Shown piece after piece: positions 3,331 to 42,268 of a stretch of 42,268 bases of DNA. Position numbers and translations under genes: made by a program. How positions within the stretch are numbered: the stretch's first letter is position 1; each line of letters opens with the position of its first letter. Source of the stretch: Bacteroidaceae bacterium (lineage in GTDB: Bacteria > Bacteroidota > Bacteroidia > Bacteroidales > Bacteroidaceae); assembly GCA_017535725.1 (NCBI GenBank), contig JAFXTO010000007.1, forward strand, positions 1-42,268, written 5' to 3'. Under the pieces are notes generated by a model that saw only the letters and a list, made by a program, of their open reading frames with translations, searched no databases and was not told the origin of the DNA.

Positions 3331-4314
3331 ATGAAAATTAAGGTATTCTTATTCTGCATTCTTCAGGTTTCACTTCTCACGCTTTCGGCTCAGACCACAA
3401 GGACGTGGGGTGCGTGGGACAAATGGGGAGAGCAACCAGACGGCACTTATCTTAACCCTGTTATCCCAGCGGATTACAGCGACCTCGATTGCATCCGTGT
3501 GGGTGACGACTATTATGCCATCTCGTCGACGATGCAATACTCTCCTGGCATGACCATCCTGCACTCCCGCGACCTCGTCAACTGGGAGATAGCGGGCAAT
3601 GCCGTTAGCGACCTTTCAGAAATCTCACCTGCGCTGACGTGGCAGCAGATGGATCGCTACGGCCGCGGCATCTGGGCAGGTACGCTGCGGCATCACGACG
3701 GTCGCTTCTACCTCTATTTCGGCACGCCTGACGAGGGCTTTTTCATGACCTCCGCCACTAAGGCCGAAGGCCCGTGGGACCCCTTGACCTGTCTGTTGGC
3801 CGAGAGTGGATGGGACGACTGCTCGGTCATCTGGGACGAGGACGGTGATGCCTGGTTCATCGACACCTGCTTCCGCGAGGGCTACAAGACCTACTTCTTC
3901 CGTATGGCCTCGGACGGCCGTAGCATCCATCGCTCTACAGCACGCTTGGTCAACGAAGGTTACGGCAGGGAAGCCAATAAACTCATCTACCACGATGGTT
4001 ACTACTATCTTATCTTCAGTGAACCCGACGCTGACGCGACGGGCACAGTGGCAGGGGGGCACGCGACGGGCACAGGGGCAGGACCCGACTCTGACGCGAC
4101 GGGCACAGTGGCAGGGGGCACGCGACGGGCACCGGAGCAGGACCCGACGCTGACGCGACGGGCACCACGGCAGGATTCGACGCTAACGCGACGGGCACTG
4201 GGGTTTATGAGGCTGGGCTTATTATTTGGCGAGAAGTTTCCTTCCGTTTTCAATATAGATGCCCTTCTGCGGGTGTGCTTGAATTGTGCGGCCTTGGAGG
4301 TCGTATCTGGATGA
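3331..4314 (+). pseudogene. GH43-family glycosidase, truncated and run into repeats
   Basis: Residues 1-21 form a signal peptide (ends LSAQ). Residues 40-231 match the first part of a GH43 five-bladed propeller (beta-xylosidase or arabinofuranosidase type). The three catalytic acids are recognisable: Asp51 in YSDLDCI, Asp163 in WDDCSVI and Glu214 in GREANKL. Homology stops at about residue 231 (base 4023). The frame then passes through about 180 bases of GC-rich repeats and ends antisense to the 3' end of the convergent GH95 gene (overlap 4222-4314). GH43 enzymes of this kind normally exceed 320 residues and often carry an extra C-terminal module, so roughly half the propeller is missing. Probably an inactive remnant left by a deletion at the repeat; a folded short product is unlikely. 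Confidence 0.75.
4023..4203. repeat. GC-rich tandem repeat at the GH43 break point
   Basis: Four units start at about 4023, 4083, 4142 and 4175 (periods about 60, 59 and 33). Each begins with a GACGCTGACGCGACGGGCAC-like core, and the 11-mer GCGACGGGCAC recurs six times. The stretch stays open in several frames, which explains the artificial Ala/Thr/Gly-rich tail of the GH43 remnant and opposite-strand reading frames rich in Val-Pro-Val-Ala-Ser. It does not look like selected protein sequence. Confidence 0.85.
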
Positions 4315-6921: not shown

Positions 6922-6949
6922 TTCAAATATCTTTTTTTCTACCATGCCG

Positions 6950-34382: not shown

Positions 34383-36179
34383 CTATCGGAACAGCAGTTT
34401 CTTGCCCTGTGAGTTGACATAGATGCCCCGCTTCGGCTGGTTCACTCGCTGGCCCTGAAGGTTGTAGAGCGCGTTGGGTTTCGTGGTGGCAGAAGGGGCT
34501 TCCACCCCATCGAGGTCGCCCGTCCGGCGCAGCTGGATGTAGTCAATATTGGGTGCGAAGGACAGGTCGTTGCCCAATCGGATGGTGTTCTGCCCGGGTT
34601 GCAGGGTGATAGAGACGGTGGCAGAAGCCCACCCGTCTGCCCAGGTTCCGGTCTTGAGATTCCTAAGCGAGCGTACGGGTTCATCGTTTACGTAGACATC
34701 CAGGTTTCTGCTCTCGCCGCTAGCATAGTAGATGGAGAGGCGGTATTTGCCCCCCTCGAAACTATAGATGTCACGCCATACCATGTAGTTTCCGGGGTCG
34801 TTGCCTATCCATCCTGCATAGCCTCCGCAGTCCGCGTTGTCGCCGGACTCATAGCGTGCGGAGGGGCGCCCCGAAATCTCCTGATACTGGGGCATCCACG
34901 CTTCCTCGGCCTGATAGCAGGTGCGCTCCACGCGCTTTCCCGTGACAAAGTAGGCGGCGGAGCCATGGGCTGGAATAGTGATGGAGGTACTCTCGCCGAT
35001 GGTGGTCTCCTCGCCTGTCAGGCAGTTGTACATCGTGGCCGAGTCGGTCATCTCGATGGAGGAGAGTTGGAATTTCGTCGTGGCCTCCTTGTCGCTCAGG
35101 TTCATGATGACCACGGCGCGCTTGGGGCCGTGAAGCTGTTCCACGTCCTTGGCTACCGTATAGACTTCTCCTTTCTTGGCCACCACGGGGGCACCCAGTC
35201 CCAGCGAGTCCTGGTTCATGGCTATCAGGTCTTGGTTCTTCAGCAGCTTCAGCGATGCGGCCGGAATGTTCCTCAGGTCACAACCGATGAGCAGCGGAGA
35301 GCTGCAGATGCACCAGTAGGCCATGTGTGTGATTTCCTCGTCGCGGCTCAGCGAGCGCCCGATTTCGAGCATATCCATGTCGTTGTAGTGGCCGCGGCTG
35401 GTGTAGGATTGGATGTAGAGGTTCTCCTTGATGATGCTCTTCACGGACTCCCACGCACAGTAGATGTCCCCCGTCGTTCGCCACGAGTCGCAGATGCCGT
35501 CCACCCACGTCCCCGGATAGGCCCATCTGCAGATATTGAAGACGATGGGCTTGTCCATTTCCAGAGCGCTCTTTTGTATGGCCTTGGAGATGCGGGTGTA
35601 TTGTAGGCTGTCGTTGAGGTTCAGGTGGATGCCGCCGCAGTAGTCCACCTTGATGAAGTCAAAATTCCATTCGTTGAAGTACAGCTGACAGTCCTCTTCT
35701 TCATGGCCGTAGAAGCCTACTCCGAGACCGTAGGCCTGCATGTTTCCAGAGCCACAGGTGTTGTCGCCGGCGTCGGAATAGATACCTGCCATGAGTCCTT
35801 TCTTGTGGATGTAGTCCGTCAGGTATTTCATGCCACGGGGAAAGAGCCTGGTGTTGAGAATCAGCTTGCCGTCGGCACCGCGTCCATTCCAGAAACCGTC
35901 GTCAATATTAATATAGGTGTATCCGGCTTTGGACAAGCCCGTCCGCACCATGGCGTCGGCTTGCTCCTTGATGAGGCTCTCGCTGATGTTGAGCGCGAAG
36001 GTGTTCCATGAGCTCCATCCCATCGTGGGGGTACGGGTGGAAGGATAGGTGTTGGAGGTGGGTTCCGACTGTGCACGGGTGCTGGTGCAGAGCCCGGCAA
36101 TCAGCAAGGTGGCGAACAGGCGACCCATGGAACTGAAAAAGTGGTCCGTATGGCAGAATTTGAGGTACTTCATAATCAT
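34383..36179 (-). CDS. Secreted GH27 alpha-galactosidase with C-terminal carbohydrate-binding module
   Basis: A 598-residue enzyme that removes terminal alpha-galactose. The N-terminus carries a signal peptide after a short charged lead (hydrophobic ATLLIAGLCTSTRAQ, about 22-36); the ATG at 36173 is an equal candidate. GH27 marks: PTMGWSSWNTF, YINIDDGFW, nucleophile Asp179 in IKVDYCGG and acid/base Asp238 in WRTTGDI. A beta-domain follows to about 425, then a CBM6/35-like jelly roll (about 430-565, with GYAGWIGNDPGNYMVW and ending FAPNIDYIQL). The final 30 residues form the tail shared with the GH29 and GH95 enzymes. Promoter TAACTTTG at 36210-36217. Family call firm. Confidence 0.93.
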   Translation of the reverse strand: MIMKYLKFCHTDHFFSSMGRLFATLLIAGLCTSTRAQSEPTSNTYPSTRTPTMGWSSWNTFALNISESLIKEQADAMVRTGLSKAGYTYINIDDGFWNGRGADGKLILNTRLFPRGMKYLTDYIHKKGLMAGIYSDAGDNTCGSGNMQAYGLGVGFYGHEEEDCQLYFNEWNFDFIKVDYCGGIHLNLNDSLQYTRISKAIQKSALEMDKPIVFNICRWAYPGTWVDGICDSWRTTGDIYCAWESVKSIIKENLYIQSYTSRGHYNDMDMLEIGRSLSRDEEITHMAYWCICSSPLLIGCDLRNIPAASLKLLKNQDLIAMNQDSLGLGAPVVAKKGEVYTVAKDVEQLHGPKRAVVIMNLSDKEATTKFQLSSIEMTDSATMYNCLTGEETTIGESTSITIPAHGSAAYFVTGKRVERTCYQAEEAWMPQYQEISGRPSARYESGDNADCGGYAGWIGNDPGNYMVWRDIYSFEGGKYRLSIYYASGESRNLDVYVNDEPVRSLRNLKTGTWADGWASATVSITLQPGQNTIRLGNDLSFAPNIDYIQLRRTGDLDGVEAPSATTKPNALYNLQGQRVNQPKRGIYVNSQGKKLLFR

Positions 36180-36209
36180 TTCTTGTGGGAGAACGTGTCA
36201 ATTTGGTGG

Positions 36210-36217
36210 CAAAGTTA
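36210..36217 (-). promoter_or_regulatory. TAnnTTTG promoter box of the GH27 gene
   Basis: The minus strand reads TAACTTTGCCACC, about 31 bases before the GH27 start. It is divergent from the promoter of the flavodiiron gene at 36282. Confidence 0.55.
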
Positions 36218-36281
36218 TAAAAAATACTCCGCAGGAGTCCACAAAAGGAGGACATTTTTCGTTTCCTCCACAGAAAATACC

Positions 36282-36289
36282 TATCTTTG
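36282..36289 (+). promoter_or_regulatory. TAnnTTTG promoter box of the flavodiiron gene
   Basis: TATCTTTGCGCCGC lies 31 bases before the ATG at 36320. Confidence 0.6.
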
Positions 36290-36319
36290 CGCCGCAAAAA
36301 GAAAAAAACGCTCCTCATT

Positions 36320-37489
36320 ATGACCAAAAACATTACTGCTGATATCCGTTACATCGGTGTCGACGACCCCACACAGAATCTCTTCGAAAGCCAGTACGCC
36401 ACGCCCGATGGCATGTGCTATAACTCATACGTCATCCTCGACGATAAAATAGCCGTCCTCGACACCAGCGATAGTCGTACCCTCGCTTCCTGGAAGGACA
36501 ACCTCTCCGAGGTTCTCGCTGGTCGCCAGCCCGACTACCTCATCGTTCATCATCTGGAACCCGACCACGCCAGCGGTATCGCCGACGTCTGTGCCCAGTA
36601 CCCCGCCTTGCAGATTGTCTGCTCCGCCAAAGCCCTGCAGATGATGCCCCAGTACTTCGATGCCGACCTTCTCCAGGACCGTGTGCTCACCGTCAAGGAG
36701 GGTGACACCCTCTCCCTCGGTCGCCACACCCTGCGCTTCATCATGGCGCCTATGGTCCACTGGCCCGAAGTCATGGTCAGCTACGACGATGCCGACTGCG
36801 TGCTCTTCTCCGCCGACGGCTTCGGCAAGTTTGGCGTCTATGATGCCGACGCGGACGATTGGGCCTGCGAGGCACGGCGCTACTATTTTAATATCGTCGG
36901 CAAGTATGGCGGCCCCGTCGCCACACTCCTTAAGAAAGCTGCAGCCTTGGACATCCAGCAGATTCTGCCCCTCCACGGCCCAGTCCTCTCCAGCGAGCAG
37001 TTGGCCGAGGCCCTGCGTCTCTACGGCATCTGGTCGTCCTACGGCGTAGAGACCGACGGTGTCTTCATCGCCCACGCCAGCATTCATGGCAACACCGCTG
37101 ACGCCGCTCTCCGACTCATGGACATTCTCAAACAGAAGGGGTGCCCGAAGGTTGCCATCAGCGACCTCTGCCGCGACGACCTCGGCGAAGCCATCGAGGA
37201 CGCCTTCCGCTACGGCAAGATGATTTGCATGGCCTCCAGTTACGATGCCAGCGTCTTCCCGCCCATGTACGATTTCCTCCACCACCTTGAACTCAAGGCC
37301 TACCAGCAACGTCGAGTCGCACTCGTGGAGAACGGGTCGTGGGCTCCTTCCGCCGCCAAGACCATGCGCCACCTGCTCGAAGGCATGAAGCAGCTGGAAA
37401 TCGTGGAACCCGTAGTCACCCTACGCGGACGTCTCAAGGACACCGACCTCCCTCAGCTCGAAGCCTTGGCCGATGCCATCCTTGCCTGA
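36320..37489 (+). CDS. Flavodiiron protein (FprA-type)
   Basis: A 389-residue A-type flavoprotein that reduces O2 to water, or NO to N2O, in anaerobes. The metallo-beta-lactamase-like domain (about 1-245) has the di-iron motif His78-x-Glu80-x-Asp82-His83, a later His in MAPMVHWPE, Asp in FSADGFGKFG and a final His in LPLHGPVLS. The flavodoxin domain (about 255-388) has VFIAHASIHGNTADAA for FMN binding. No rubredoxin fusion. A frame start at 36287 lies in the promoter box, so 36320 is used. An oxidative-stress role fits an obligate anaerobe. Confidence 0.93.
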   Translation: MTKNITADIRYIGVDDPTQNLFESQYATPDGMCYNSYVILDDKIAVLDTSDSRTLASWKDNLSEVLAGRQPDYLIVHHLEPDHASGIADVCAQYPALQIVCSAKALQMMPQYFDADLLQDRVLTVKEGDTLSLGRHTLRFIMAPMVHWPEVMVSYDDADCVLFSADGFGKFGVYDADADDWACEARRYYFNIVGKYGGPVATLLKKAAALDIQQILPLHGPVLSSEQLAEALRLYGIWSSYGVETDGVFIAHASIHGNTADAALRLMDILKQKGCPKVAISDLCRDDLGEAIEDAFRYGKMICMASSYDASVFPPMYDFLHHLELKAYQQRRVALVENGSWAPSAAKTMRHLLEGMKQLEIVEPVVTLRGRLKDTDLPQLEALADAILA

Positions 37490-37504
37490 GCCCTGCAGAC
37501 CCTT

Positions 37505-37605
37505 CCTGAAAACATTTCGTTTTCCTACCCTCCCTCCTATTTTTTCCCTCCTTTTTGCAGTTCAATGCAAAATAATCGCTATCTTCATGCCCGATAAGGG
37601 CATGA
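37505..37605. repeat. Direct repeat copy A
   Basis: Bases 37505-37585 match 38329-38411 (copy B) at most positions, including CTATTTTTTCCC, CCTTTTTGCAG and AATGCAAAATAATC. Copy A then continues into a hairpin CATGCCC-GATAA-GGGCATG (37586-37604). The two copies flank the toxin-antitoxin remnant. Confidence 0.7.
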
Positions 37606-37668
37606 AGAGTGCTATTTATGGGTCATTGAGAACCTTGGCGAAGATGCCTGAGTCAAATCTTATCTCTT

Positions 37669-37890
37669 TCAATCTAGTTTTCGTACTTCACCCCAGGCAT
37701 TAGGCTGAAGTGCTTGATGTTGTCTCTCATAGTTACCACTATTCAGCGCACCGTATGTCAATTCTGCAAGCGAAATCTCGGAGGCAAAGATTTGATCAAC
37801 ATCCATTGCATCCACACGTTCTTTGACTCCATAGCGTTCGCGGAAATACTCAATCCAAGTGCAGGTGTCCAAAATATACTCCTCCGTCAG
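37669..37890 (-). pseudogene. Truncated VapC-like PIN-domain toxin
   Basis: The frame encodes YILDTCTWIEYFRERYGVK and EISLAELTYGALNSGN, the first half of a PIN-domain ribonuclease, including the first Asp and the conserved Glu. It ends after about 73 codons with an unrelated tail, while VapC toxins are about 130 residues, so the last active-site acids are missing. The expected start overlapping the antitoxin stop as ATGA appears as CTGA (CTG at 37888-37890); the next possible start is TTG at 37872. Both defects suggest an inactive remnant. Confidence 0.7.
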
Positions 37891-38177
37891 TCATCCAGAT
37901 TAATGTCAAGCATAAATTCATTTTTACGACCATCCTTAATGGCAGCTTCCATTCGGTCTGCATCTGGGTCATCCTTCCAACTGCCGGCAAGTGACATAAG
38001 TCCGCGCTTGCGCTCTTCTTTGGAAAGCATTCGTTCTCCAGGCGTTTCCTTTGTCTTTGCCAAAGACTCTGTCAAAAAGAAAATAACAATCTTCTTCTCC
38101 TCGGAGCTCAAACCCTCTAACAAACTGGTATATGGTGCCATTGGAGTCTCAGCGATACGTCTTGCTAATGCTGTCAT
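37887..38177 (-). CDS. Antitoxin-like protein upstream of the VapC remnant
   Basis: A 96-residue small acidic/basic protein with SLLEGLSSEEKKIVIFFLTESL and LAGSWKDDPDADRMEAAIKDGR. The second block resembles antitoxins paired with PIN toxins in Bacteroides (neutralising C-terminal tail). Start at 38177 (MTALARRI) is preferred over 38207, because a minus-strand TACTTTTG box at 38205-38212 would leave no leader for the latter. No classical DNA-binding domain was recognised. The toxin gene is broken, so the antitoxin may be a leftover or protect against related toxins elsewhere. Confidence 0.6.
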   Translation of the reverse strand: MTALARRIAETPMAPYTSLLEGLSSEEKKIVIFFLTESLAKTKETPGERMLSKEERKRGLMSLAGSWKDDPDADRMEAAIKDGRKNEFMLDINLDD

Positions 38178-38204
38178 AACTTCAGATTCTTTTGTTTTGT
38201 GCTG

Positions 38205-38212
38205 CAAAAGTA
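38205..38212 (-). promoter_or_regulatory. TAnnTTTG promoter box of the antitoxin gene
   Basis: The minus strand reads TACTTTTGCAGCAC, about 28 bases ahead of the ATG at 38177. Confidence 0.5.
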
Positions 38213-38328
38213 CATATTCCCTTTGAATTGATAAACAAAAACACCATAAAAATAATACAAACAGACTAAAACAGGCCCATTTCGAGCTTCAAGCACGAAG
38301 ATAAACGTGCGGCTATTCCTGATAGTGC

Positions 38329-38411
38329 CCTGAAAAACATTCTGTTTTTCTCCCATCCATCCTATTTTTTCCCGCCTTTTTGCAGCGCAATGCAAAATAA
38401 TCACCATCTTT
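38329..38411. repeat. Direct repeat copy B
   Basis: Counterpart of copy A at 37505-37585, about 82 bases with scattered differences. It may be an old duplication or the borders of an inserted cassette of about 820 bases. Confidence 0.7.
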
Positions 38412-38469
38412 CCTCTATAAATAGAGAACATTTTTATCTCGACTGGCTTATAATTTCGAAAATTATGTC

Positions 38470-38538
38470 TATCTTTGTGCCCGAAAGGGCACGAAGCGGC
38501 TCCGATGCGAGCCGTGGGAAACCTCAGCGGAGGTGCCC
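38470..38538 (+). ncRNA. Promoter followed by three consecutive hairpins (candidate small RNA)
   Basis: TATCTTTG at 38470-38477 is followed at once by three stems: GTGCCC-GAAA-GGGCAC (38477-38492, GNRA-type loop), CGGCTC-CGATGC-GAGCCG (38497-38514) and ACCTC-AGCG-GAGGT (38521-38534). No reading frame. A weaker version of the first stem follows copy A. It could be a small structured RNA or a leader; no named RNA family recognised. Confidence 0.4.
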
Positions 38539-38673
38539 TATCAAATCTTATTGGAAGTATTAAACGTTTGCCGTTTCTCGCCATTTCTTCCTATTATTTC
38601 GCAAAAACGGCTAAATCTTTATCTTCTTTAGAAGATTTTTGGAAATCTATAAGGTAAATAGAAGGAAAAAACG

Positions 38674-38681
38674 TATTTTTG
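38674..38681 (+). promoter_or_regulatory. TAnnTTTG promoter box upstream of the RiPP cluster
   Basis: TATTTTTGCAGCG lies about 300 bases ahead of the RiPP precursor. Transcription should begin near 38687. Confidence 0.55.
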
Positions 38682-38686
38682 CAGCG

Positions 38687-38912
38687 ACAAAGCCAGTCCA
38701 AAGCTTTCTGAAGCCAGCAAAGGCTGATGACTGTGAGGGCAGGGCGGGTCAAAACAAACATCGATGGAATCCAGAGGTTGAGAACACCATTTGTAAGGAC
38801 AGCCGAAGGGAAAGGACGTTTTCTGAACGCAACTTGTCTACGTGTTCAAACTTCGCAACTTAGAAATGAACACTTGAATAGGCGCGGAGGAACAAGCTCC
38901 CACGTCTTTTTT
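38687..38912 (+). ncRNA. Candidate non-coding RNA or attenuated leader ahead of the RiPP genes
   Basis: About 225 bases between a promoter and a terminator without a convincing gene. A stem GTGTTCA (38842-38848) / TGAACAC (38867-38873) and the terminal hairpin are clear. The unit is neither tmRNA, RNase P RNA nor SRP RNA by their usual core motifs. It could be an independent small RNA or a leader that controls read-through into the precursor gene. Confidence 0.45.
38881..38912 (+). terminator. Intrinsic terminator before the RiPP precursor
   Basis: GGCG and GGAG (38881-38889) pair with CTCC and CGTC (38897-38906) around GAACAAG, followed by six T. It lies 71 bases before the precursor ATG. 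Confidence 0.65.
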
Positions 38913-38982
38913 ATTTCCAAATATTTAACTTAGTATTAACGCTGAATTGGGGAGTTAGGAGGCACAAAGACTTCTTAAAGTT

Positions 38983-39255
38983 ATGAAGGAAAACGAAAAG
39001 AACGAAGAGCTCCTTTCGCGAAGGGAGTTTTTCAAGAGCGCAGCCAAAGGAGTACTGCCTATTCTTGGATTGACAATTCTGGAACCGACTCTGTTGTCTT
39101 CCTGTAAAAAAGATGAATGCAGCGGCGACTGCGTTGTCAGTTGTTCTGATAGTTGTGTAACAGGGTGTAGGAATTCTTGCGATGCCAGTTGCACAAGTGG
39201 GTGTACCAACACTTGTCAAACAACATGCTCTAGACTCAATATGGGTCAGTTGTAA
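38983..39255 (+). CDS. CXXX-repeat RiPP precursor with Tat motif and lipobox
   Basis: A 90-residue peptide with three parts. Residues 1-11 are a charged lead. Residues 12-41 read SRREFFK (twin Arg at 13-14), then a hydrophobic run GVLPILGLTILEPT and LLSSC with Cys41, so it looks like a Tat-dependent lipoprotein signal. Residues 46-82 carry ten cysteines exactly four apart (46, 50, 54, 58, 62, 66, 70, 74, 78, 82) separated by small and polar triplets rich in Ser, Thr, Gly, Asp and Asn. This is the target-peptide pattern of CXXX-repeat radical SAM systems in Bacteroidales. A GGAG/AGGAGG stretch lies upstream (38951-38961). The core is probably modified by the next two proteins, perhaps by thioether links; the product is unknown. 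Confidence 0.85.
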   Translation: MKENEKNEELLSRREFFKSAAKGVLPILGLTILEPTLLSSCKKDECSGDCVVSCSDSCVTGCRNSCDASCTSGCTNTCQTTCSRLNMGQL

Positions 39256-39312
39256 AACAACGGTTTTAGGCTATATATGGGTGGCTGAGCTTTTGGTAGC
39301 AAATTATAGAAC

Positions 39313-40494
39313 ATGAAATCTGATAATCCTATTCGTTACAAAAGTATTACTTTCATTGTAACTAAAGATTGTCAATTAGCTTGCAAATATTGCTATTTAG
39401 TTGGAAAGAATTCGAAAGAGCGAATGTCCTTCGAGATAGCAAAGCAAGCGATAGACTATCTTTTAGACGAGAAGCGTAACTTCCAAGAGGATGGTGTTAT
39501 ATGGGATTTTATTGGAGGAGAGCCTTTTTTGGAAATAGACCTCATCGAGAAAATATGTAATTACGCCAAACTTGAAATGTATAGGAGAAATCACAAATGG
39601 TTCAACAATTACAGATTTAATTTCTCTACCAATGGCCTCAATTATCACGAAAGCAGGATCCAAAAATTCATAGAAGAAAACCATTCCCACCTAAGTATTG
39701 GTATAACCATAGATGGAACCAAGCTGAAACATAATCTAAACAGAATATACAGGAATGGTAAGGGGTCGTATGACGATGTCGTTAAAAACATACCCTTATG
39801 GCAAAAGCAATTTCCTAAAGAAGGGACGAAAGTTACTATTAGTAGTGATGACATCCCATATATCAAGGAAAGCGTATTACATCTCTATGATTTGGGAATT
39901 CATGAAATTCATATCAATTGTGTTTTTGAGGATGTCTGGAAAGAGGGAGATGACAAGAATTTCGAAAAGCAACTTGTCGAGTTGGCTGACGAAATAATTG
40001 ACAACGACCTTTACAAAGACTTTAGTTGCTCTTTCTATTCTGAGGATATAGGAAAGCCCCTAAAAGACAACGGGAACTGGTGTGGAGCAGGAATGATGCT
40101 TGCAGTTGATGCATCAGGATTTTTTTATCCATGTCTACGTTTTGCAGCCTATTCTCTTCGCTCGAAAAAGCCAATAGTTATTGGAAATGTTAAAGATGGG
40201 ATAGACCAAAATAAGTTGCGTCCTTTCTTAACACTTAACCGCACGACCCAATCACGGCAAGAATGTATAGACTGCGAAGTGGCTGGCGGTTGTGCCTGGT
40301 GCCAGGGCGAAAATTATGATGCCGCAGATACCAACACGATTTATCAACGCTCTGTAGCAATCTGCAAGATGCACAAAGCTCGCGTCCGTGCCAATAATTA
40401 CTTTTGGAACAAGCTATATCGTAAACTTGAACTCCAAGGAACGCGTGATGATTTTGAAAAGAACAGACGCAAAGTGAAACCTATTGTTTGCTAA
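39313..40494 (+). CDS. Radical SAM/SPASM peptide maturase (CXXX-repeat family)
   Basis: A 393-residue radical SAM enzyme. The SAM-binding cluster is Cys20-x3-Cys24-x2-Cys27 (CQLACKYC), followed by FIGGEPFLEIDLIE (GGEP) and FSTNGLNY. The C-terminal SPASM region has Cys257 (WCGAG), Cys274 (FYPC), Cys318-x2-Cys321, Cys327-x2-Cys330 (GGCAWC) and Cys351, enough for two extra Fe-S clusters. It closely fits the radical SAM peptide maturase, CXXX-repeat target family. It follows the precursor by 57 bases and is followed by its partner after 4 bases. AT-rich codon use differs from the flavodiiron gene and earlier housekeeping genes. Family call firm; the bond it makes is not known. Confidence 0.9.
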   Translation: MKSDNPIRYKSITFIVTKDCQLACKYCYLVGKNSKERMSFEIAKQAIDYLLDEKRNFQEDGVIWDFIGGEPFLEIDLIEKICNYAKLEMYRRNHKWFNNYRFNFSTNGLNYHESRIQKFIEENHSHLSIGITIDGTKLKHNLNRIYRNGKGSYDDVVKNIPLWQKQFPKEGTKVTISSDDIPYIKESVLHLYDLGIHEIHINCVFEDVWKEGDDKNFEKQLVELADEIIDNDLYKDFSCSFYSEDIGKPLKDNGNWCGAGMMLAVDASGFFYPCLRFAAYSLRSKKPIVIGNVKDGIDQNKLRPFLTLNRTTQSRQECIDCEVAGGCAWCQGENYDAADTNTIYQRSVAICKMHKARVRANNYFWNKLYRKLELQGTRDDFEKNRRKVKPIVC

Positions 40495-40498
40495 GAAG

Positions 40499-41428
40499 AT
40501 GTTGCAGTATCTGAACATTTTATTGGATGACAGCGCCGTCTCTTTTTGTCATTATGAGGCAGAAAAGGAACAACGGCTTATGAGCATAGATACGCTAAGG
40601 GCTGGAATTCGTTTTGCCATGATGGAGAATTTGATGATTCAGTATGTTTTCCCTGACAACACTTTGCCGAAAGAATACTATAGTGTCATCGAAACTATTG
40701 ACCATTTCAATATTAAAAGGGATGGCGAAGATTCCGATGTTTGCGTAGTTGAGAACTGGGATTTCTCAAAGGCCAATGCCAATGTTCCTATAGTGGTAAG
40801 AACCACAAAAGAAGATTTATTTCAAAAGTACCAGTTACTCAATGGCATTATTACACAGGCAAAAAGGATCAACATCATAATCAAAAAAGTGGACTCTTTT
40901 AACAATGACGACTTCGAAGAATACAAAGGAATCCTTAATGCCCTCGGTGAACAGGTTGAACGTGCATATATAGACGGCCTCTCTCCTCAGCTAAACATTC
41001 TTACTGACCGCATGATGCTCAAGGAAATGAACAACTGCGGTGCAGGTGAAACAACGATTACACTGGCTCCCAACGGAAAGTTGTATGTATGCCCAGGCTT
41101 TTATTATGACGATGAAGCAGACTGTATCGGAGACTTGGAGAATGGACTTGACATCAAGAATAAACAGCTTTATAGACTTGACCATGCACCGATTTGCCGT
41201 CATTGCGACGCCTACCAATGCAAACGCTGCATCTGGCTCAATCGAAAAACAACACTCGAAGTGAACACACCTTCACATGAACAATGCGTATTGGCACATT
41301 TAGAGCGTAATGCAAGCCGAGAGTTGTTGCAAAACATCCGTAAGCATGGCACCTCACTTTCAATGCAGGAGGATATAAATGAAATAGATTATTTAGACCC
41401 ATTTGACAAAAGAGACGATTGGAAATGA
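40499..41428 (+). CDS. CXXX-repeat peptide maturase, SPASM-like without radical SAM cluster
   Basis: A 309-residue protein. The C-terminal third has a SPASM-like cysteine set: Cys180 (NNCGAGE), Cys198 (LYVCPGF), Cys209, Cys233-x2-Cys236, Cys241-x2-Cys244 and Cys263. The N-terminal two thirds show no CxxxCxxC motif, only Cys22, so it cannot bind the SAM-cleaving cluster. It looks like a decayed radical SAM paralogue that kept the auxiliary clusters, matching the CXXX repeat peptide maturase family. Start: ATG at 40499, 4 bases after the upstream stop; a TTG at 40484 overlaps that gene. Its end overlaps the next gene (ATGA). It probably forms a complex with the radical SAM enzyme; this is inference. 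Confidence 0.8.
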   Translation: MLQYLNILLDDSAVSFCHYEAEKEQRLMSIDTLRAGIRFAMMENLMIQYVFPDNTLPKEYYSVIETIDHFNIKRDGEDSDVCVVENWDFSKANANVPIVVRTTKEDLFQKYQLLNGIITQAKRINIIIKKVDSFNNDDFEEYKGILNALGEQVERAYIDGLSPQLNILTDRMMLKEMNNCGAGETTITLAPNGKLYVCPGFYYDDEADCIGDLENGLDIKNKQLYRLDHAPICRHCDAYQCKRCIWLNRKTTLEVNTPSHEQCVLAHLERNASRELLQNIRKHGTSLSMQEDINEIDYLDPFDKRDDWK

Positions 41429-41700
41429 CAAAGAAACTTATAGGGCAGGTAACGCCCGAAGAGCGCACAGAAATACAGACTCTTTTCGAACGTCGCAACG
41501 GACTGAATGAATTGGCAAAGATCCTGACCGCAGACAATGCCGAGTTGTATGAAAAACTGGTAAAAGACCTCGGTGAAACAGGAGTTAGGTTCCAACGTTG
41601 GTGGAATCAAATGGCAGAAAAATACAAGTGGGAATCCGTTGAGGGCGGAAACTGGGAGATAGACTTTAATACATGTCATATATTCTTAGTTACTCAGTAA
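41425..41700 (+). CDS. CXXX-repeat peptide modification system small protein
   Basis: A 91-residue protein, mostly helical. It contains TPEERTEIQTLFERRNGLNELAKIL and YEKLVKDLGETGVRFQRWWNQMAEKYKW, ending in VEGGNWEIDFNTCHIFLV. It matches the small accessory protein found beside CXXX-repeat maturases. Start ATG at 41425 overlaps the previous stop by ATGA, so coupling is likely. It may bind the leader peptide or act as scaffold; no catalytic motif is visible. It is the last gene before the insertion sequence; no protease or exporter gene follows in the window. Confidence 0.78.
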   Translation: MTKKLIGQVTPEERTEIQTLFERRNGLNELAKILTADNAELYEKLVKDLGETGVRFQRWWNQMAEKYKWESVEGGNWEIDFNTCHIFLVTQ

Positions 41701-41813
41701 AAATCACCCCTCATTTCGGCGCAGGTGGGATTTTCCGTGGATAGCCCACACATATCCCTCATCGCCTAACCAAAAAATCTTAGCACAACGGAACGCCTGT
41801 CGAGGCAAAGTGT

Positions 41814-41821
41814 TACCTTTG
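41814..41821 (+). promoter_or_regulatory. TAnnTTTG promoter box of the IS transposase
   Basis: TACCTTTGCACC ends 4 bases before the ATG at 41826, so the transcript would be almost leaderless. Confidence 0.5.
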
Positions 41822-41825
41822 CACC

Positions 41826-42266
41826 ATGGCAAAGAAACATTCCTCATTCGACTACGAGACATTAGTCCGCTACATGCTTCCCCAGGGCACGCTTGATTAC
41901 TTCGAGATCACAAAGATAGAAGAAGAAGTTACTGACGAGAAGGACGAGACAGGCACAGTGATCCGCATCCTGCACATCTACCTTGACGAACGTGACCTGC
42001 GAGATGTGACGTGGCACGACCTCCAGCCCAACGGCTTTACAGAGCCTCGTCTGCTCAACGACTTCCCCCAGCGTGAGCACAAGGTGTTGCTGCATGTGAG
42101 GCGTCGCCGCTGGCTTGACCAGAACCGGCGCAATGTCATCCTTGAGAGCCTGCCGCTGGTGGCAGAGGGAACCAACTACTCCGTGGAATTCGCGGATTTC
42201 TTAAAAAAAATGGTTGGACACCTACCCAGTGACGGCCCAATGCGTGGGGCGCTTCTTCCGGACTGA
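41826..42266 (+). CDS. ISAon1-family transposase, N-terminal region protein
   Basis: A 146-residue frame with YMLPQGTLDYFEI, IHIYLDERD-like IRILHIYLDERD, FTEPRLLNDFPQREHKVLLHVRRRRWLDQNRRNVI and VEFADFLKK, the typical first ORF of ISAon1 elements. It ends in an out-of-frame tail (MVGHLPSDG...). At 42203-42210 there is a run of eight A. A -1 shift there opens a frame reading WLDTYPVTAQCVGRFFRTD, the start of the catalytic second ORF, so a programmed frameshift probably makes the full transposase. The remainder lies outside the window. Confidence 0.8.
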   Translation: MAKKHSSFDYETLVRYMLPQGTLDYFEITKIEEEVTDEKDETGTVIRILHIYLDERDLRDVTWHDLQPNGFTEPRLLNDFPQREHKVLLHVRRRRWLDQNRRNVILESLPLVAEGTNYSVEFADFLKKMVGHLPSDGPMRGALLPD

Positions 42267-42268
42267 CG

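Follow-up and report, generated by a model that had tools for sequence, protein, structure and literature searches.

A predicted cassette for a Tat-exported, radical-SAM-modified cysteine-repeat lipoprotein in a Bacteroidaceae bacterium

Contig JAFXTO010000007.1 (GenBank assembly GCA_017535725.1) from a Bacteroidaceae bacterium with relatives among gut and rumen species was analyzed over its entire length of 42,268 nucleotides, which is referred to as the window in the following. At positions 38983–41700 it carries a four-gene cluster of the CXXX-repeat type, which encodes a Cys-repeat precursor peptide, a radical SAM/SPASM maturase, a SPASM partner protein, and a small helper protein. Judging from sequence comparisons and structure models, this cluster probably represents a cassette for a Cys-repeat lipoprotein that is modified by the radical SAM enzyme and exported by the twin-arginine translocation (Tat) pathway, a reading to which we assign a probability of about 0.6. 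Within this reading, the predicted Tat export, with folding before export, is the step that is best supported by the genomic data. The cluster itself is not a product of chance, since three of the four proteins score far above the curated, system-specific NCBIfam cut-offs and the gene order recurs in a sister cluster of the same genome as well as in loci of other species.

The genes are tightly packed and co-directional, as had been stated in an initial annotation of the region:

38983–39255, forward strand: precursor gene (90 amino acids; Tat signal, lipobox, and ten-Cys repeat; TIGR04117)
39313–40494, forward strand: radical SAM/SPASM peptide maturase gene (393 amino acids; TIGR04115 and Pfam Radical_SAM)
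40499–41428, forward strand: SPASM partner gene (309 amino acids; predicted degenerate radical SAM barrel plus SPASM-type Cys set; TIGR04119)
41425–41700, forward strand: helper gene (91 amino acids; CXXX repeat peptide modification system protein; TIGR04116)

For the partner, the ATG at 40499 was preferred over a longer alternative open reading frame (ORF) from a TTG at 40484, and for the helper the ATG at 41425 over a TTG ORF of 93 amino acids, which agrees with the 91 residues annotated before. The initial annotation had assigned the genes to a CXXX-repeat family known from comparative genomics and had proposed a profile search against the respective NCBIfam models. In this search, the radical SAM/SPASM enzyme reached 612 bits for TIGR04115 (cut-off 350), the partner 251.5 bits for TIGR04119 (cut-off 150), and the helper 102.6 bits for TIGR04116 (cut-off 50), while the precursor lies at the TIGR04117 cut-off of 50, with 48.5 bits as a protein and 51 bits in a six-frame genome search. 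Thus, the family assignment was borne out. The description of the third gene product as SPASM-like missed that the protein is a degenerate radical SAM protein according to its model. The annotation also overlooked the Tat signal of the precursor, its lipobox with an export-type signal, and the tatAC genes that are linked to related clusters.

The ten Cys residues at strict four-residue spacing that had been recognized in the precursor are found at positions 46, 50, 54, 58, 62, 66, 70, 74, 78, and 82; a further one, Cys41, had gone unmentioned and fits a lipobox. The leader consists of the twin-arginine motif SRREFFK (residues 12–18), a hydrophobic stretch, and the lipobox LSS|C41, followed by KKDE. 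The precursor thus has the sequence features of a Tat substrate, namely twin-arginine motif, hydrophobic stretch, and cleavage site, and also those of a surface lipoprotein, in which the lipobox is followed by X-K-(D/E)2 or an acidic signal (here LSSC-KKDE). In the portion of PMC5080379 consulted, X-K-(D/E)2 after the lipobox Cys is described as the lipoprotein export signal of Bacteroidetes. The C-K-K-D-E of the window precursor resembles this arrangement, whereas its Tat-type signal peptide, its Cys-repeat body, and the accompanying modifying enzymes set it apart from such surface lipoproteins. Location of the protein on the cell surface is therefore a prediction from its sequence. No Pfam match was obtained for the precursor, and a search for recent tandem duplication within it yielded merely two families of 13–14 bases with two copies each.

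A scan of the sequence collection found 280 related stretches, and the following counts on related loci (given as L numbers) cover the best 80 of these 280, which stem mostly from Bacteroidales metagenome genomes, with three carrying Firmicute labels. The strict motif [STNDHYL]RRx[FL][FL][KR] precedes the Cys repeats in at least one frame in 79 of the 80 loci, the lone exception being L016, which is cut at the contig start. Among other ORFs, this motif occurred in 10 of 1059, each of which reads as TatC; a looser motif was found in 32 of 1064 control ORFs, which were mostly TatC together with the precursors of L045 and L067 and a few chance matches. Counted by frame, 118 of 124 poly-CXXX frames have a Tat-like motif. 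As to the other six, the L047 frame at 3498 looks spurious, the L047 frame at 6940 has a spaced-out RR, and four are fragment-like. The tatA and tatC genes are located just after the helper gene in 54 of the 80 loci, with the TatC match starting 166–355 bases downstream of the helper in 53 loci and 1052 bases downstream in one. In the remaining loci, 20 have a helper and sufficient room but not both tat genes, one has too little sequence, and five have no helper in the stretch. All 20 loci without adjacent tatAC contain Tat-motif Cys-repeat precursors.

Linked tat genes are also present in the sister cluster on another contig of the window genome, whose maturase is 79% identical to that of the window:

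L086:4374–8137, all genes on one strand: sister CXXX operon (precursor, maturase, partner, helper, tatA, and tatC; ORFs abut or overlap)

The sister precursor frame contains 16 Cys residues. As longest ORFs, the sister tatA and tatC genes overlap by 50 bases, and both assignments were confirmed by Pfam. They encode the only TatA and TatC proteins detected in the window genome, which is 76% complete; within its own contig, the window cluster has no adjoining tat genes. Directly 5' of the sister precursor lies a small lipoprotein-like gene (L086:3884–4414). The nearest relative of the window cluster is L006, with a maturase identity of 89%. In a comparison with window positions 36001–42268, DNA similarity to L006 spans 39020–41700, i.e., up to the end of the helper gene.

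The association with tat genes was also apparent at the genome level. Among 201 genomes of the same family, the maturase was detected above the cut-off in 24 and TatC in 160. At least two TatC proteins were present in 16 of the 24 CXXX-positive genomes versus 9 of the 177 others (Fisher p 5.6e-12), and 12 of 15 CXXX regions that were fetched from such family genomes contain TatC. In a TatC tree of 83 sequences, comprising 67 from CXXX loci and 16 from elsewhere (eight of the latter from genomes that also have CXXX), 65 of the 67 locus TatCs are placed on a single branch with 100/100 support and none of the 16 others falls inside it. The tatA-tatC genes of the loci thus belong, for the most part, to a lineage that is separate from other TatCs.

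The cleavage sites of the precursors suggest two destinations. The 118 Tat-motif frames, to which window and sister contribute, divide into 43 with a lipobox, 74 with a signal-peptidase-I-like site, and one with neither. This split depends on the position limits used, as earlier rules gave 42 versus 76 and 61 versus 57. At least two Asp/Glu residues within positions +2 to +8 after the lipobox Cys were found in 38 of the 43 lipobox precursors, versus none of the 74 signal-peptidase-I-like ones after their first Cys. Met-Gly stands directly before the first Cys in 28 of these 74 non-lipoprotein precursors (e.g., L020, L038, and L054). Loci encode one to six precursors, with up to 74 Cys residues per frame and a longest unbroken CXXX run of 52 Cys residues (L026). 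Giant frames of 61–74 Cys residues are located at L007:6899–7939, L026:7037–7933, and L041:7039–7941. In three other frames (L065:6908–7954, L017:5456–6430, and L067:6694–7422), the lipobox or the initial block of Cys residues is followed by sequence without repeats, and CXXX segments may therefore be joined to ordinary protein domains there.

The modification itself has to be deduced from the maturase and its substrate. The window maturase possesses the CX3CX2C motif at residues 20–27 and seven SPASM-type Cys residues between 257 and 351. Its closest solved chain by sequence is the SCIFF maturase CteB (5wgg, E 3e-30). This alignment begins only at residue 96 of CteB, the N-terminal part of which we take to be a leader-binding RiPP recognition element (RRE), RiPP denoting ribosomally synthesized and post-translationally modified peptides. 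The second-best NCBIfam model is that of PapB, whose score of 213.3 bits is below its cut-off of 340. In CX3D motifs, PapB links the Cys sulfur to the beta-carbon of the Asp, nested links being possible (PMC9413430, as far as consulted). Processive thioether linking by the window maturase is plausible by analogy, since its nearest characterized relatives PapB and CteB form thioethers. The similarity to the PapA/PapB ranthipeptide system (freyrasin), in which a Cys is linked to the residue four positions on, has its limits. In addition to the sub-threshold score, the Cys-X3-Asp/Glu acceptor motif of PapB substrates is absent, as position i+4 in the CXXX repeats is Cys, and pseudo-enzyme, helper, and Tat signal are extra components. 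In the precursors, 2027 of 2338 Cys-to-Cys intervals span four residues and 147 span three. Asp plus Glu make up 6.3–7.4% at each X position, and in the 2027 CXXXC units Ser, Gly, or Thr occupies x3 in 70% and Gly occupies x2 in 37%. The sole fixed residue four positions on from each repeat Cys is the next Cys. A period-8 alternation of two repeat kinds was considered and discarded, as observed/expected ratios for successive x3 residues were just 0.75–1.19.

A partner match was found in 79 of the 80 related loci. According to its model, the TIGR04119 partner is a degenerate (pseudo-)radical SAM/SPASM protein, whose predicted fold is CteB-like but without CX3CX2C, so that CteB is the nearest solved structure for the maturase by sequence and for the partner by fold. 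Within the first 60 residues, CX3CX2C occurs in 0 of 59 partner relatives, in comparison to 80 of 81 true enzymes that have it anywhere in the protein. The assignment of the degenerate barrel is drawn from the predicted structure, because sequence comparisons reach the SPASM part alone: partner and maturase could be aligned by hhalign locally over this part only (82% probability, E 1e-5) and globally over four columns, and BLASTP gave a SPASM-level match only, at E 0.08. The alignments for structure modeling held 60 of 75 helper sequences and 60 partner sequences, that of the window included; 17 frames without a start fitting the pattern, as well as shorter frames, were omitted from the partner set. 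The helper model has a beta-alpha-alpha-beta-beta topology (pLDDT 94.5) without any significant fold match in the PDB by Foldseek or VIA-align. In topology, the model looks unlike a PqqD-like winged-helix RRE.

Maturase and partner are fused in Anaerococcus prevotii, where plasmid pAPRE01 encodes a protein of 728 amino acids with TIGR04115 at residues 21–377 and TIGR04119 at 505–711:

L129:204–2654 (NC_013164.1): maturase-pseudoenzyme fusion with a four-Cys CXXX peptide, on a Firmicute plasmid typed as conjugative

Downstream follow a helper region that is split over two frames and then an ABC transporter, and the locus adjoins class III lanthipeptide genes. A sactipeptide gene of A. prevotii DSM 20548, which may or may not be the fusion locus, appears in a list in the portion of PMC4289311 consulted. 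A second type of fusion, joining partner and helper in 510 amino acids, is present in G477 and G259, two genomes from a single further genus of the phylum, and adjoins an RR-type, lipobox-like Cys-repeat precursor. The occurrence of fusions in both combinations suggests that the three maturation proteins act together in a single complex.

Taken together, the cassette might function as follows. Maturase, partner, and helper would form one cytoplasmic complex, with the Tat signal peptide serving as leader. The active maturase would move along the core and introduce about one thioether-type link per Cys, while the SPASM clusters of the pseudo-enzyme would hold the substrate thiol and/or pass electrons. 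Such a link-per-repeat maturase with a SPASM-only partner as substrate-holding or electron-passing subunit would have a parallel in PapB, whose second auxiliary cluster is thought to carry electrons between molecules (PMC10470005, as far as consulted). The rigid modified product would exit folded via TatAC, in the case of the window cluster by borrowing tatAC of the sister cluster, and would then receive a lipid at Cys41 and be transferred to the outer face of the outer membrane; for the signal-peptidase-I-like precursors (74 of 118 frames), a soluble secreted form could take the place of the lipoprotein. Candidate final roles are a surface coat, metal or redox binding, and antagonism.

Several observations weigh against this proposal. 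The 20 loci without both adjacent tat genes despite room for them include the nearest relative L006 (L011 has tatA only), and although TatC is encoded elsewhere in 18 of these 20 genomes, the search detected no TatC in those of L006 and L021. The locus TatCs of L068 and L083 lie outside the main branch of the tree, on long branches, so that a single origin of the locus TatCs is not demonstrated. No TatA or TatC match was obtained in the 14–16 kb fetched from G477 and G259, nor within the stretches fetched from A. prevotii, where the 56-residue, four-Cys CXXX peptide upstream of the fusion, with CKLMCVHTCRYSC, has no visible Tat signal. Since this Firmicute relative pairs with another exporter, Tat represents a linked export solution that is neither obligatory nor defining for the maturase family. 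Furthermore, the system is rare: the helper was detected in only 3 of 296 genomes sampled across the phylum, which are the window genome itself, G477, and G259. Regarding the chemistry, no X position is fixed in the repeats and no acceptor stands out.

An alternative to the proposed chemistry is that of the sactipeptide type, in which each Cys would be linked to the alpha-carbon of repeat residue x2 or x3 instead of a beta or gamma carbon. The residue preferences mentioned above, Ser/Gly/Thr at x3 and Gly at x2, fit this alternative, as Gly has no beta carbon to accept a link. Yet PapB and CteB, the nearest characterized enzymes, make non-alpha links (PMC9413430 and PMC11002830, as far as consulted), and we regard alpha-carbon linkage as unlikely, although it survives best among the alternatives. 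Next in order, and rated a little lower, is a bacteriocin that follows conventional RiPP logic, with the Tat link being incidental. It would agree with the small, fast-varying precursors, of which there are one to six per locus, with the lanthipeptide genes and the ABC exporter beside the Firmicute relative, and with co-directional secreted-type genes, which precede the precursor in 16 of 81 loci and could encode immunity or partner proteins. These upstream families are restricted to a minority of loci and do not cluster with each other, however, and 43 of the 118 precursor frames read as lipoproteins, the tat genes recur, and the gene order is kept. A metallothionein-like or iron-sulfur protein, in which the repeat Cys residues stay thiols that bind metal or clusters, Tat exports the folded holoprotein, and the radical SAM pair makes a minor modification, is doubtful and follows in third place. 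Tat classically exports cofactor-loaded proteins, and up to 74 Cys residues per frame with few other constraints would suit such a role. Against this, the maturase that accompanies the precursors is related to thioether-forming enzymes and is joined by a SPASM pseudo-enzyme, and the prevailing four-residue spacing suggests a stepping enzyme, as Cys spacings in metallothioneins are mixed. Quite improbable, and last in order, is a distinct RiPP class with Tat-signal leader, private TatAC, and lipoprotein-displayed or secreted products, in which the sulfur of each Cys would be joined to the beta-carbon of Cys i+4, i.e., PapB geometry on a Cys acceptor. A continuous sulfur ladder would result, with some ten rungs in the window and as many as about fifty in relatives. 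This geometry is brought up by the rarity of Asp/Glu and the next Cys being the only fixed i+4 residue.

The co-directional, signal-peptide-like genes upstream of the precursor belong to two families (nine and seven loci), and several of them stand directly before it. One member of each family was compared with Pfam, and neither gave a match.

First family, directly upstream of the precursor: L049:7003–7506, L061:7041–7586, and L070:7044–7589
Other family, directly upstream of the precursor: L014:6922–7437, L076:6905–7459, and L080:3834–4379

The tested member of a third neighbor family (six loci, about 400 amino acids) had no Pfam match either. A minus-strand family in 29 loci was dismissed, as the rows inspected place it antisense to the helper/tatA region. 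In the window, the cluster is directly followed by an ORF at 41826–42266 that has a match to the family of ISAon1 transposase N-terminal regions and lies outside the system; the contig ends there.

The type of system is already catalogued in NCBIfam, and all four window genes match its CXXX-repeat families (TIGR04115, TIGR04116, TIGR04117, and TIGR04119), which were compared by family name; Tat signals may already be described in the entry texts or in subscription papers. What is added here are the Tat signal, the lipobox and export signal, the linked TatAC, and the assignment of TIGR04119 as a pseudo-radical-SAM protein. A precedent for such a degenerate partner is given by the Bacteroidales RiPP clusters in PMC10352776, in whose consulted portion pseudo radical SAM proteins are named among the accessory genes, whereas CXXX and Tat do not occur in the main text. 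Term searches showed that "CXXX" is absent from PMC10352776, PMC8326336, PMC4289311, and PMC11002830, that "Tat" is absent from PMC10352776 and PMC11002830, and that "twin" is absent from PMC8326336 and PMC4289311. No paper naming the CXXX repeat or these TIGR families was found, subscription papers lying outside the search, in line with the initial view of an uncharacterized product. The listed titles and abstracts contained neither a link of Tat to radical SAM or RiPP systems nor a product paper.

The usual picture of radical-SAM-modified peptides is that they exit the cell via ABC transporters or stay inside. A Tat translocase from the same operon offers a simple physical rationale for another route, as the product would be crosslinked and folded before export. 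The degenerate radical SAM partner would add a subunit that probably binds the substrate or handles electrons. Cys-repeat proteins of up to 74 Cys residues, none of which has been isolated according to the literature found, may thus form a coat on Bacteroidales of gut and rumen or be released by them, and the link to Tat makes this uncharacterized CXXX family testable.

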